Notes under the pieces: model-generated
The model's input: the letters and a program-made list of their open reading frames with translations, nothing else
The model's database searches: none
What the model was told of the DNA's origin: nothing
Source: Planctomycetales bacterium
GTDB lineage: Bacteria; Planctomycetota; Planctomycetia; Pirellulales; Lacipirellulaceae
Direction: 5' to 3'
DNA: 64,000 bases
Assembly: GCA_020427155.1 (NCBI GenBank)
Contig: JAGQOW010000013.1
Location: 1 to 64,000 of the forward strand
Position numbers and translations under genes: made by a program
Shown here: piece after piece, positions 52,867 to 59,683 of the stretch
How the letters are laid out: each line of letters starts with the position of its first letter
How positions within the stretch are numbered: position 1 is the first letter of the stretch

Positions 52867-53625
52867 TCACTCGTTGCTCTGCTCGAGCTCTTCCATTACA
52901 TCGTCAGGAATGTTGAAGTTTGCGGCAACTTTCTGGACATCGTCGTGATCGTCTAGCTGTTCCATGAGCTTGAGGACCTTTTTGGCGGTTTCAACGTCGA
53001 GATCGATGGTGTCGGTGGGAATGCGATTGAGATCGCTCATCTCGATTTCGATCCCCGCGTTGCCGAGTTCTTCCTGTAGATTGCCGAATGAATCGGGATC
53101 AGAGATAACTTCGAATTTACCGTCGACTAGTTTCACGTCCTCGGCGCCGGCTTCCATCGCCAATTCGAGCAGCTTTTCTTCCTCGACTTGTTCGCAATCG
53201 ATTACCACGATCCCTTTGCGCTCAAACATCCAGGCGACACAACCCGTGGCACCCAGTTTTCCGCCTGCAATTTCGAAGATCTTGCGTACTTCAGGCGCCG
53301 TTCGATTTCGGTTGTCGGTGAGTATTTCGCAGAGCACAGCGACCCCGCCGGGGCCATAGCCTTCGTAGAGTGCTTCGTCGAAGCTTTCACCTTCGAGTTC
53401 GCCACTTCCTTTCTTAATTGCCCGTTCAATATTGTCTTTGGGCATACTGACGGCTTTCGCGTCGTTGATGGCGTAGCGCAACCGCAGATTGGTATCAGGG
53501 TCTCCGCCTCCCATCTTGGCAGCGACTATGATTGCCTTGGAGAGCTTACTCCAGACCTTCCCCCGTTTATTGTCGATCAGGGCCTTCTTGTGCTTGATGC
53601 CTGCCCAGTGAGAATGTCCGGCCAT
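52867..53625 (-). CDS. yebC: YebC/PmpR family protein
   Basis: 252 residues. Begins with the invariant MAGHSHWAGIKHKKALIDNK and continues with YEGYGPGGVAVLCEILTDNR, both diagnostic. Members act in transcriptional control and, by recent work on the family, in relieving ribosome stalling. Length is typical. It has its own consensus -10 box in the 57-base gap from the preceding gene. Confidence 0.95.
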   Translation of the reverse strand: MAGHSHWAGIKHKKALIDNKRGKVWSKLSKAIIVAAKMGGGDPDTNLRLRYAINDAKAVSMPKDNIERAIKKGSGELEGESFDEALYEGYGPGGVAVLCEILTDNRNRTAPEVRKIFEIAGGKLGATGCVAWMFERKGIVVIDCEQVEEEKLLELAMEAGAEDVKLVDGKFEVISDPDSFGNLQEELGNAGIEIEMSDLNRIPTDTIDLDVETAKKVLKLMEQLDDHDDVQKVAANFNIPDDVMEELEQSNE

Positions 53626-53654
53626 GAATTAGAGTTCAAAAGTAGGAGTCGAGA

Positions 53655-53681
53655 ATTATATGACGTTGTCCTCTATGCCAA
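53655..53681 (-). promoter_or_regulatory. Promoter of yebC
   Basis: Leftward -35 TTGGCA (53676-53681) and a perfect -10 TATAAT (53655-53660), but the spacer is only 15 bases. Predicted leader about 23 bases without an SD. The -10 is strong; the pairing is less certain. Confidence 0.4.
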
Positions 53682-53682
53682 T

Positions 53683-54702
53683 CTACCTTGGCTTGCGCTT
53701 CGTCGGCCGCTTCGTGGTCGTCTTTTTCTTCTTTTTGACGACCTTCTTAGCAGGCTTCGACTTGGCAACCTTCTTCTTTTTCTTCACCACTTTTTTCGGA
53801 GCGGCTTTTTTCTTGGTAGTCTTCTTCTTCCCGACCGAAGTGACTTTGGCGGCAGCTTTAGCTACCTTTTTCTTCTTCGCGACGACCGCGGCTGCCTCCT
53901 TTTTGCTGGAGTCGCTCTTAGCTTTGGCTTCGGCTGCAGCCTTAGCCGCCGCAGCCTTCGCCGTAGCCTCAGCCTTTGCTGCAGCTTCGGCTTCTTTCGC
54001 TTCTTGTTCGGCCTTTTTGGAAACTCGCTTAGGTAGGCGGCTTTTGCAGTCGGGGTCGATTTCCAAGAGGATCTTGCGAATGCCCGGCCCGTACGGACTC
54101 CGCTGCAATTCGACGCCCAATTGGTGCAGTAGCGATCCGACTTCGATCCCTTTCGATTTGGGGACAGCGCGTTCGAGCCCGGGTACCCGGCCCTGTTTGG
54201 CTTCACTCTCCGAGATCACTCCCACTACCTGCATTGCAGTCAGCAATCCTTGGTTGACCGGAATCGAGTGCCCTCCCAGAGCATTCTGCGTGACATAGGA
54301 GACGGTAAAGTCGGTCGAGCCGTTGTATTTCTGAAGTTGCTTCGTCGTTTGGCCAATGTTCTGCTTTTTGAGCGGTTCCAGATCGAAAGAGTAATGGGTC
54401 TCGAAGACGCTTTGCAGAACTCGCTTCAGTCGGGTTGCAGCCTCTAAAGGGTCGTTTAACGGCTTCATCAAGTCTGTCAACTCTCGAATCGAAGTTACCC
54501 GTACCTCATTCCAGTCGTAATACTCCTGAGATAGCGACTCAAAAACCTTTTCGGTCGGTTCGTGTAACGAAGTTTCGAGGCAGCAAGAAAAAAGTAAGTG
54601 TTCAAGGAGGCTGCGCTCCTTGGGTGGCTCTACGGGCTTGAAATTGCGTCGAACGACTTTCAGAACTTTACTAATCTGAGCTGCGCGGTTATTGCTCGCC
54701 AT
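53683..54702 (-). CDS. Endonuclease III-like protein with histone H1-like basic tail
   Basis: 339 residues. Residues about 1-210 follow the HhH-GPD (endonuclease III) helical fold. Where the glycosylase has the helix-hairpin-helix and catalytic Lys/Asp, this protein reads STDFTVSYVTQNALGG then HSIPVNQG; the expected Asp is Asn and the C-terminal four-Cys iron-sulfur motif is absent. Residues about 225-339 are Lys/Ala/Pro-rich, like a histone H1 tail. It is likely a DNA-binding, non-catalytic protein (inference). Between rbfA and yebC. Confidence 0.7.
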   Translation of the reverse strand: MASNNRAAQISKVLKVVRRNFKPVEPPKERSLLEHLLFSCCLETSLHEPTEKVFESLSQEYYDWNEVRVTSIRELTDLMKPLNDPLEAATRLKRVLQSVFETHYSFDLEPLKKQNIGQTTKQLQKYNGSTDFTVSYVTQNALGGHSIPVNQGLLTAMQVVGVISESEAKQGRVPGLERAVPKSKGIEVGSLLHQLGVELQRSPYGPGIRKILLEIDPDCKSRLPKRVSKKAEQEAKEAEAAAKAEATAKAAAAKAAAEAKAKSDSSKKEAAAVVAKKKKVAKAAAKVTSVGKKKTTKKKAAPKKVVKKKKKVAKSKPAKKVVKKKKKTTTKRPTKRKPR

Positions 54703-54808: not shown

Positions 54809-55213
54809 TTACTCCAATTCCGAAGCTTCGAATTCAGCCGACTCTAGCGAATCGCCAGGAGGCGGGGGCTCTGGGGGGAGCACTTCGTTGAGCATCTTGG
54901 CGAGGGCAATCGACTTCTTGACGCCCTGATCAATTTCAAACCGCAATCGTGGCGTGTATCTTGTATCAATCCTGCGAGCCACTTTCTGTTGCAGGTATCC
55001 TGCCGAACTACGCAGCCCCTCCAAGCAGAGCCGTTGGGCAGTTTCGTCTCCCATGATCGAGACGTGTACCTTCGCATTGCGCATGTCCGCCGATACCTCG
55101 ACATACGTAACCGTGACGCCAGCAATACGCGGGTCCTTCAGTTCGGCAAGGATAGCCATGCTGACCACTTCACGAATCGCTTGAGCCGCTTTTTGCACGC
55201 GTCGGGAAGTCAT
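54809..55213 (-). CDS. rbfA: Ribosome-binding factor A
   Basis: 134 residues. Assists 16S rRNA maturation in the 30S subunit. The KH-like fold is recognised from RRVQKAAQAIREVVSMAIL, LKDPRIAGVTVTYVEVSADM and the AKVHVSIMG strand, with the RYTPRLRFEIDQGVKKS stretch near the end. A short acidic C-terminus follows. Position after infB is the common bacterial order nusA-infB-rbfA. Confidence 0.94.
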   Translation of the reverse strand: MTSRRVQKAAQAIREVVSMAILAELKDPRIAGVTVTYVEVSADMRNAKVHVSIMGDETAQRLCLEGLRSSAGYLQQKVARRIDTRYTPRLRFEIDQGVKKSIALAKMLNEVLPPEPPPPGDSLESAEFEASELE

Positions 55214-55362: not shown

Positions 55363-58110
55363 CTATTGGCTCACGGAATCGTCGAATGTACGGCCTATTT
55401 CGTCTATGCGATAGACTTCGAGGAGGTCCCCTTCTTTCACGTCGTTGAAACCGGCTAACTTGATTCCACACTCCATTCCCTCGCGCACTTCCTTGGTATC
55501 GTCTTTCTCGCGTTTCAGGGTATCGATCGGGTAATCTCCAACTATCGTATTGTCGCGGATGACCCGAGCCCGCCCGTTTCGTTCGATCGATCCTGCCAAC
55601 ACGCGGCAACCGGCGATGGTTCCAACGCGACTAATCTTGTAAGTCTGTTGGACCAGGGCTCGGCCAAGGTCGACTTCGCGCTGTTCAGGAGCCAGCAGGC
55701 CCTCCAGGGCCGCCTTCAGCTCCTCGGTGATCTTGTAAATGATCTGATAACGTTTGATTTGCACGCCTTTTTTATCGGCCAGCAGGCGAGCACTTTCTTC
55801 GGCGACGACGTTAAAGCCAAGGATAATGGCATCAGAAGCATCAGCCAAGGTGACATCAGCATCGGTAATACCGCCGACCGAAGCCTGTAGAAGTTTTATC
55901 TTGACCTCAGGGTGTTCCAGCTTCAGCAGCTCTTTCTGAATGGCCTCGATCGATCCGCGAACGTCGGCTCGGAGGATGAGGTTGAGCGTTTGCACCTCGT
56001 CGGTCCCTTCGAGTCGATCGAAAAGATTCTCGAGCGTGACGTGTTGGATGCCCACGCCCAGGGTGTTGGCCCGCTCGTTCTCCAGCCGCGACTCGGCAAT
56101 TGCCCGCGCCGCGCTAATGTCGTCGAGCACATAGAAATGTTCGCCGGCAGCAGGAGCCGTATCGAGGCCAATGAGGTTGACAGGCGTGCTGGGCCCTGCC
56201 TCCTCCAGGCGTCGATCCGACTGCAGGGTCTCGTACATCGCCTTGACGCGACCGTAAGCTTGTCCGCAAACAACTACGTCGCCGACGCGCAGCGTTCCGT
56301 TCTGCACGATCACTTTCGCCACTACGCCGCGCCCCGATTCTTGCTGAGCTTCCAGGCAAGTCCCCAAGGCATGCCGCTTGGGATTGGCCTTGTACTCGTG
56401 CAACTCGGCAACAGTCAGTAAGGTCTCGATCAGGTCGTCGATGCCATCGCCGGTGATGGCACTGGTCTTAACGACTTCCACATCGCCGCCCCATTCGCTT
56501 GGCAACAAGTCGTTGGCAGCAAGGCCCTGCATCGCGCGGTTAATGTCGACGCCAGGGAGGTCGACTTTGTTCATTGCCACGACGATCGGGACTTCTGCGG
56601 CGCGAGCATGACTGATTGCCTCCTCGGTCTGAGGCATTACCCCGTCGTCTGCAGCAACTACCAGCACGGCAATGTCGGTGACGTTAGCTCCCCGTGCTCG
56701 CATTTCAGTAAAAGCTTCATGGCCAGGCGTGTCGACAAACGATATCTGGCGACCTTCGCGATCGATCGCGTAGGCACGTATATGTTGCGTGATTCCGCCG
56801 CTTTCTCCGCTTACCACGTCGGTATGGATAATCCGGTCCAACAGCGAAGTCTTGCCGTGATCGACATGTCCCAGGAAAGTAATTACTGGAGGACGAGGGG
56901 CGAGGTCTTCCTCTTTATCCTCCTGCTCCAGAATTCCTTCCAGCGTTTTATCTTCGAAGCTGACCGATTCCTTGAGTTCTATATTGACATCCAACTCAGC
57001 TGCTACGAGTTCGGTCAATTCGGGTTCCATCACGGCGGTGATCGATGTCATAACGCCTTCTTCCATGAGAATGCGTAGAATCTGACTTGCAGGTACGCCG
57101 GCGGCTTCGGAGAACTCTCGGACGGTACATGGAAGCTGGAGCGCAACTTTCGTCTTCCGTGGGGCAGCCGTGCTGACCCCCGACTTCTTGCTACGACGGA
57201 ATGTGCGACGAGGCCGGTCGTCTGACTGCTCTCGCTTCGAAGACTGCCGTTGCCGTCCCAGCTGACGCTGTTCGCGGCCGCCCAGCATCGGAGCAGAGTC
57301 GCTGGCGGCGCCTCTGCTTTTGCCTCGGCGATGCCGAGGTTTTCCTTCGGCATCCTCATCTGCAGCCTCGGCTTCTCTTTCCCTTCTGGCGAGCTCGAGC
57401 GTTTCTTCATGCCGCCGGAGATGGGCTGACAGCGGTTTGGCTCCAGTTTTGCCCGCTCGCAAGGCGTCGGCAGGCAGCCGCATATCCGGCTTTTGAGTCG
57501 GTTCTTCCGAGCCTTTCGCCTTGGCGGGCGTAGTGCCTTGGTCAACGGCAGGGATCGGTGCGAGTTTGATGGCTGGCCTGCTGCGCTGCGTCCCACCCGA
57601 CGCAGGTTTCGCTTCCCCACTGGAGGGCGGCGATCCGCTAAGCGTGGGAAGCTTGCCCGTTACATTCCCGGGGCCGATGTAATCCTCTCGCTTCATCACA
57701 CCGGCGAGCGGCCCCGGCGATCGAGATTCTAGAGACTTCGTCTGCTCCGCTTCGACAGATTCGACAGACGCTGCTTCCTCCACGTCGGTGTCCTGAGCAG
57801 CAGACTGCGCCGACTTGCGAATTCCGGCCAGGGGCGACTTGGGGCGGGAAGTGTTGATTACCGGCATTTTGCCGGTTCGCGCTGCCGGAGAACTAGGTCG
57901 CTCGGGAGCAGCCGGGGCGTTGCTCGGCTTTGCGCGACCCGCCGTTGAACTGGGTGTCGCCAAGAAGTTGCGCAGCTTGTCAACTTCTTCGTCGGAAAGA
58001 CTTGCTAGGGCAGAACCCTTGCCAGTGATACCTGCCTTTGCACAGACATCGACCAGCTCTTTGCTGTCAACCTTCAATTCCTTCGCTAACGCATAAATGC
58101 GGGTGGCCAA
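55363..58110 (-). CDS. infB: Translation initiation factor IF-2
   Basis: 915 residues. GTPase that brings initiator tRNA to the 30S subunit. The TTG at 58110 is preferred because GGAG lies nine bases upstream and the product then starts with the IF2 N-terminal motif [19 protein letters not shown]; another TTG 48 bases upstream has no SD. A long charged/Pro linker (about 60-300) precedes the GTPase domain with [22 protein letters not shown] and NKVDLPG. Domains III-IV follow (VGGITDADV near residue 775). Second gene of the nusA operon. Confidence 0.95.
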
Positions 58111-58267
58111 AACAGAATTCTCCGTGCGAGCCAGCGCTGAGGCCGGTTCAATAGACAAATTATCAGGGGCGGCGCTCGCTCGCGGTTACCATAGCTTAAC
58201 AGGACATCATAACGAACGTCCTCCAACAGCTGCGCCAGTAGGGACTACCAAGGCTACTACTACTAAC

Positions 58268-59683
58268 TTACTCTGGCTCGCCAGCGGCAGGGCTGGCGGG
58301 GACCTCCGTCTTCTTCTCGTCGATCTCTTCTTGGGCTGACGCTAAAGCCTCGCTCGCGGTTGGCTCGGTCAATTCGTCGTCTGACGCAGAAGCGATCTCG
58401 GGCTCCTCTTCCTGAGAGCCCTCCTCTTCAACTTCAGCCTCACTCTCGCGTTCTGCGGCCTCGATCGCTGCCTCTTCCTCAGCGGCCTGTCGATCTTGGT
58501 CTCGCTTCGTCTTTCGGGCTTCGGCGGCAGCGATCTCCGCTTCTGCAGCATGGGCTTCTGCTTGTTCGACCACCCTATCAACCTGCTCAGGGGACAAACC
58601 TCCCATCGCCATCAATGCGTCGGGCTCGATAATGGACAGATCGTCGTAACTAAGGAAACCCTCTTCGACGAGCCGTTCGGCCAACTCGACTTCGACTCCC
58701 TCGATCAAGCTGAAACCTTGCACGGCGCGGTCGATCGATTCAGCCAGTTCTTCTTGGGTCATAATCTCGATGTCCCAACCAGAGAGTTTGCTGGCCAAAC
58801 GCACATTCTGACCCCGTCGGCCAATTGCCAAGGACAACTGGTCTTCTCGTACCAGCACAATCGCCCGGCCCAACATTTTACAAAGGATAACTTGCTCAAC
58901 CTCGGCGGGTTGCAAGGCATTGGGAATCAATATTTCGAGGTTATCGTCCCAGCGAACGATGTCGATCCGCTCTCCTGAGAGTTCATCGACAATATTCTTG
59001 ATTCGATTGCCACGCACACCGACGCAGGCGCCGACACAGTCGACCCGCTGGTCGCTGCTGCTGACGGCGACCTTCGAACGATAGCCAGGTTCGCGTGACA
59101 TGGCGCGGACTTCGATCACGCCGTCGATGATTTCAGGGATCTCTTGCTCAAAAAGCCGTTGTACCAACTGTGGACGCGCCCTGCTAAGGATCACCTTGAC
59201 GCGGCTACCGGATTTCCTCACTTCGAATACAGTTGCTCGTACACGCTCGTTGACGTGGTGAGTTTCGCCGGGAATCTGTTCGCTACGAGGCAGTATCGCC
59301 TCGACGTTAGACAACGTGACCGTTGCCGCGCCGCCTTCATAGCGTTGGATCACGCCGCTTACCATCTCTCCGATCAGCTCGTGATACTCCTCGTAAAGCG
59401 AATCGCGTTCCGCTTCACGGATCTTCTGGATCATCACCTGCTTTGCTGTCTGAGCCCCGATACGACCGACGGTTTCCTCAGAGTCGAGTTCCTCTCCATC
59501 GCAGGAGGCTGCGATGGCGCCACTCTCGCGGTCGATCTTTACTTCGATCTCCGCTTCTTCGCCATAGTGTTTCTTGGCCGCAGAGACAAGAGCGGCTTCG
59601 ATGCCCTCGAAGACGATTTCCTTGTCAATATTCTTGTCGCGATGAATAGCATCGACGATTCTCAGCACTTCACTGGCGTTCAT
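58268..59683 (-). CDS. nusA: Transcription termination/antitermination factor NusA
   Basis: 471 residues. N-terminal RNA-polymerase-binding domain, then S1 ([20 protein letters not shown]), and KH domains with [20 protein letters not shown] and [21 protein letters not shown] helix-hairpin-helix region and a long Glu/Ala-rich acidic tail (about 375-471) close the protein. Upstream of infB by 157 bases. rimP, the usual upstream neighbour, is not present. Confidence 0.95.

Follow-up and report, generated by a model that had tools for sequence, protein, structure and literature searches.

A gene at positions 53683-54702 on the minus strand of the analysed window (the whole 64,000-nt stretch of planctomycete DNA) encodes a 339-aa protein in which an HhH-GPD-like core is joined to a basic tail. 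What would a planctomycete use such a protein for? Does it repair DNA, detect damaged DNA, structure the nucleoid, or serve another nucleic acid altogether?

The gene and its fold

The open reading frame occupies exactly 53683-54702 and starts with ATG. When 84,980 species genomes were searched with the single sequence, 22 relatives came up, all of them in Planctomycetota records. The 17 that share 66-81% core identity also have the same start, core, and C-terminus conserved. Plasmid relatives were looked for and none was found. A pseudogene or a chance open reading frame is ruled out by this conservation, together with dN/dS and synteny. Two long plus-strand open frames (53188-54036 and 53660-54298) overlap the gene and its tail in the opposite orientation; the composition of the coding strand, rich in Lys codons, accounts for both, and there is no evidence that either is a gene. 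No description of an HhH-GPD family located after rbfA in Planctomycetota was found in the literature.

The core (residues 1-220; 54043-54702, minus strand) adopts the endonuclease III fold in an AlphaFold2 model of high confidence (pLDDT 94.8, pTM 0.90). The best Foldseek match of the modelled core is Deinococcus EndoIII-1 (8a5f, E 7.8e-7), and its nearest structure by Z is EndoIII-3 (4uob; Z 17.7, rmsd 3.8 over 215 residues in VIA-align). Further evidence comes from a profile of 34 relatives compared with the PDB, which matched EndoIII-1 (E 1.8e-15), ROS1 (6e-9), and EndoIII-3 (6e-7). Profile and predicted structure thus place the protein in the HhH-GPD superfamily at the level of its two-domain helical fold, and the resemblance to endonuclease III proposed in the initial annotation is borne out. 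Curated family models hardly register the protein. Pfam PF00730 (HhH-GPD) gave no credible match to it at the curated cut-off and matched 3 of the 34 family members weakly (best E 0.034), and NCBIfam NF053634 (monofunctional DNA glycosylase, DR2438) matched it weakly, with 18.7 bits (E 0.001) against a cut-off of 400. The core is nearly neutral, with a net charge of +2.

Active site and family signature

The residues that define endonuclease III (nth) as an enzyme are not in place. In an alignment to EndoIII-1, F132 (54304-54306, minus strand) stands where the catalytic Lys would be (EndoIII Lys120). The catalytic Asp (EndoIII Asp138) is replaced by N150, the last residue of the segment H145-S-I-P148-V-N150 (54250-54267, minus strand), whose His and Pro are near-invariant. 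The Fe-S loop C-x6-C-x2-C-x5-C is absent, and the GxG of the HhH hairpin reads NGST. The initial annotation had described the Lys/Asp pair and the Fe-S cysteines as missing from their places, which is true of this protein; judged from its sequence, it appears to have no functional endonuclease III site.

The relatives differ in what they have lost. The Lys site is never Lys in 116 relatives and is nearly always aromatic (F 82, Y 24; F/Y 106). The Asp site is more varied (D 77, N 22, S 8, T 3, and G 2 across 116 relatives), and 35 of the 39 relatives without Asp carry N, S, T, or G there. It is Asn throughout the clade of the 339-aa protein. In a tree built without the Lys and Asp columns, the Asp state changed at least eight times within the family, or nine times when paralogs were included. 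Loss of the Asp therefore stands for the 339-aa protein but not as a family trait; it is lineage-specific, with Asp kept in most relatives. The four-cysteine Fe-S motif is kept in only 8 of the 117 relatives compared, and the second Gly of the hairpin GxG in only 3 of 117. Four deep-lineage relatives (L048, L052, L054, and L125) keep the Fe-S cysteines, but their Lys site is occupied by H, W, or D and their Asp site by D, T, or S; from their sequences, they are possible intermediates in the loss of the catalytic residues.

What maintains the Asp position if not catalysis? In the AlphaFold2 model the site lies immediately N-terminal to a predicted helix, and Asn, Ser, Thr, Gly, and Asp are the usual helix N-cap residues. 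This suggests that helix capping, rather than catalysis, constrains the position.

At the same time, the family has acquired a signature of its own, DxN[ED]xRV and HxxP, in which D63, N65, R68, V69, H145, and P148 are nearly invariant. Its first part is D63-W-N65-E66-V-R68-V69 (54496-54516, minus strand). N65 is found in 115 of 117 relatives, R68 in 117 of 117, and H145 in 105 of 117, and these residues have no counterpart in DrEndoIII1. Three close pairs within the Asn-bearing clade gave core dN/dS values of 0.02-0.07, and tail dN/dS is 0.11-0.12 in pairs inside the same clade. The near-invariant signature and the low core values indicate a working protein. In other words, the protein is strongly constrained despite the loss of the catalytic pair.

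One could argue that the family still consists of monofunctional DNA glycosylases, at least where Asp is kept, with the tail aiding scanning along DNA and the D-to-N clade being an exception or using another catalytic residue. Monofunctional HhH glycosylases characteristically combine an aromatic residue at the Lys site with the Asp, and this counts against a non-catalytic family; a MutY of the same phylum (L140) has Tyr at the Lys site, and the weak NCBIfam match is to a monofunctional glycosylase model. The Asp-keeping lineages might, on these sequence grounds, be such enzymes still. As an account of the family, however, this is improbable: the Asp-site changes run nearly always to helix-capping residues, relaxed constraint was not seen where it was tested (the Asn-bearing clade pairs), and both the Fe-S motif and the HhH glycines are mostly lost.

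Known members of the superfamily show how far the protein has departed from them. Deinococcus radiodurans EndoIII-1 (DR2438) and EndoIII-3, its best sequence and structure matches, have the fold in common with it but retain the Lys, the Asp, and the [4Fe-4S] cluster and have no Lys-rich C-terminal tail. The plant 5-methylcytosine glycosylases DME/ROS1, the second-best profile match, have a similar DW..R stretch; unlike the planctomycete protein, they are active bifunctional enzymes with an Fe-S cluster and extra domains. A clusterless MutY (PDB 8uuc) likewise has the HhH-GPD fold without the Fe-S cluster, but it is an active adenine glycosylase, unlike the role proposed here.

A fold of this kind can bind without cutting. 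DrEndoIII3 has a strong affinity for damaged DNA and retains its catalytic Lys and Asp, yet shows no detectable activity (PMC9268735), and it sets a precedent for an EndoIII fold that binds damaged DNA with no activity detected (PMC9268735; PMC10523315). By analogy, the planctomycete protein could be a non-catalytic damage sensor that recruits other proteins once bound to a lesion or an abasic site, and EndoIII-3 is its nearest structure. We regard this as unlikely, because the planctomycete family has not kept the residues that DrEndoIII3 keeps and no repair gene adjoins the gene at this locus.

Ordinary Nth and MutY genes are present in the genome as well, together with one that is MagIII-like. 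Base excision repair can therefore do without the protein, and the idea that the gene after rbfA had replaced the cell's own EndoIII is ruled out. In a tree the family branches apart from its Nth, MutY, and MagIII-like paralogs, with deep branches poorly supported and a few long, uncertain members (L136, L139). The own-genome MutY-like protein (L002:1360-2463) has Glu, in ILETNTVRL, at the catalytic Asp position; MutY normally has the catalytic Asp in ILDGNV. Since repair is covered by these other genes, a non-catalytic nucleic-acid-binding role is favoured. The protein is probably a pseudo-glycosylase: an EndoIII-type HhH-GPD fold that would serve Planctomycetota as a non-catalytic, nucleic-acid-binding housekeeping protein. 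The observations behind this reading are the fold, the absence of both catalytic residues and the Fe-S motif from the lineage, strong purifying selection, phylum-wide retention, the fixed place after rbfA, and the basic tail.

The basic tail

The tail comprises residues 226-339 (114 residues) and has a net charge of +37. The initial annotation had called the last 115 residues a Lys/Ala/Pro tail; the basic tail is there, but Lys/Ala describes it better (36% Lys, 26% Ala), as Pro makes up only 4%. The full-length model predicts a long Ala/Lys/Glu helix after the core (residues 229-271; 53890-54018, minus strand) and disorder from about residue 267. The disordered part (residues 272-339; 53686-53889, minus strand) is 46% Lys, contains no acidic residue, has a net charge of +34, and ends in KRKPR. 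Relatives translated to their ends have a C-terminal extension that is Lys-rich in nearly all, and a terminal [KR]KP[RK] is retained in 19 aligned members. With a tail defined as a net charge of +8 or more in 40 residues, 98 of 117 relatives have one; under a stricter limit of +12 or more, 77 do. The combination of core and basic tail was thus correctly noted in the 339-aa protein but is not universal, as 19 of the 117 have no clear basic tail. Any association between Fe-S loss and tail gain would rest on only 3-5 independent pairs. Genome-wide Lys-rich composition is ruled out as the tail's cause, because 316 kb sampled from this genome contain 248 open reading frames and none of them has a comparable tail; no other open reading frame of the window has one either.

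Tails of Lys, Ala, and Pro occur in several bacterial proteins, including AlgP, PhaF, chlamydial Hc1/Hc2, and HU with H1-like tails. Their tail composition is like that of the planctomycete protein, but their folded domains are different or lacking. In a rival view, the tail compacts DNA as it does in H1-like, AlgP-like, and tailed HU proteins, with the core as a DNA docking module. The fold does belong to a DNA-binding enzyme (Foldseek, VIA-align) and the tail is H1-like. Planctomycete nucleoids are condensed, and a histone homologue was not found in them (PMC3440768). Tomography of Gemmata showed particles of unknown identity on DNA, which leaves room for a nucleoid protein without supporting one directly (PMC3440768). 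A nucleoid-structuring role is nevertheless rather unlikely, given that the hairpin glycines for backbone contact are mostly lost, that the core is so little charged, and that the conserved neighbourhood is translational.

Having lost its catalytic residues and carrying a Lys-rich tail, the protein probably works as a binder of DNA or RNA and not as a repair enzyme. The folded core would supply specificity through the new conserved set of D63, N65, E66, R68, F100, H145, and P148, and the disordered tail would add charge-driven affinity to phosphate backbones.

Neighbourhood and distribution in the phylum

The gene is embedded in a one-strand series of genes for transcription and translation. 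On the minus strand, nusA (58268-59683) is followed by infB, encoding translation initiation factor IF-2 (55363-58158), by rbfA, encoding the 30S ribosome-binding factor (54809-55213), by the HhH-GPD gene, and by a yebC family gene (52867-53625), with gaps of 109, 149, 106, and 57 bp. From rbfA to yebC, a scan of the minus strand detected nothing resembling a terminator, although scans of this kind are weak evidence. The arrangement is widely conserved. Among 115 testable loci, 107 have rbfA as the immediate upstream neighbour in the same orientation, covering 24 family-level labels, and yebC is often downstream across the phylum. The eight loci without upstream rbfA belong to deep lineages, and five of them have yebC directly downstream.

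Given this position, a role in the nucleoid is no more likely than one with RNA or ribosomes, and the suggestion in the initial annotation of a nucleoid-structuring or damage-sensing function gained no direct support. The neighbourhood bears only indirectly on the pseudo-glycosylase role, which would involve production together with NusA, IF-2, RbfA, and YebC. Among possible targets we put RNA, the ribosome during assembly or translation, or the transcription-translation interface first, with slightly less than an even chance. Chromosomal DNA in general comes next, as a possibility that deserves some weight, and DNA binding is plausible. More specifically, and tentatively, the protein could be a ribosome-assembly or transcription-translation factor, in which a DNA-repair fold with a histone H1-like tail was recruited to RNA biology.

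The family was surveyed with its profile in 148 Planctomycetota genomes at least 95% complete, taking E 0.001 or better as a match. It was matched in 118 of them, including six weak matches (E above 1e-15). By their sequences these six may be ordinary paralogs, as L145 is, which would leave about 112 genomes. The taxonomic survey that the initial annotation had called for therefore reveals something broader than the single fusion it described, namely an unnamed family across most of the phylum, present in about 112-118 of the 148 genomes. Family code f45 accounts for 17 of the 20 genomes without a match that are listed (ten further genomes also gave no match). The slot after infB/rbfA held no distant ortholog in two f45 genomes and one f53 genome, and the missing slot in G360 is a contig end.

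If the pseudo-glycosylase reading is true, the family is a clear case of a DNA glycosylase fold retained without its catalytic residues over hundreds of millions of years or longer. The family is almost universal in the phylum, tied to core translation genes, and outside Pfam and NCBIfam at their cut-offs. It offers a specific, single-copy target for studying what an HhH-GPD protein does for planctomycetes, and its losses of Lys, Asp, Fe-S motif, and hairpin form a natural series for tracing evolution from enzyme to binder.

Some loci showed further features. In one f45 genome (L173, G122), infB and rbfA are separated by a small DUF503-like gene of 103 aa (242-553), and the slot after rbfA, elsewhere that of the HhH-GPD gene, is taken by a hisG-like gene (1017-1889). 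In L166 (G360:C152:81189-82937), the infB match has one in-frame TGA near the contig end, which is either a sequencing error or real.
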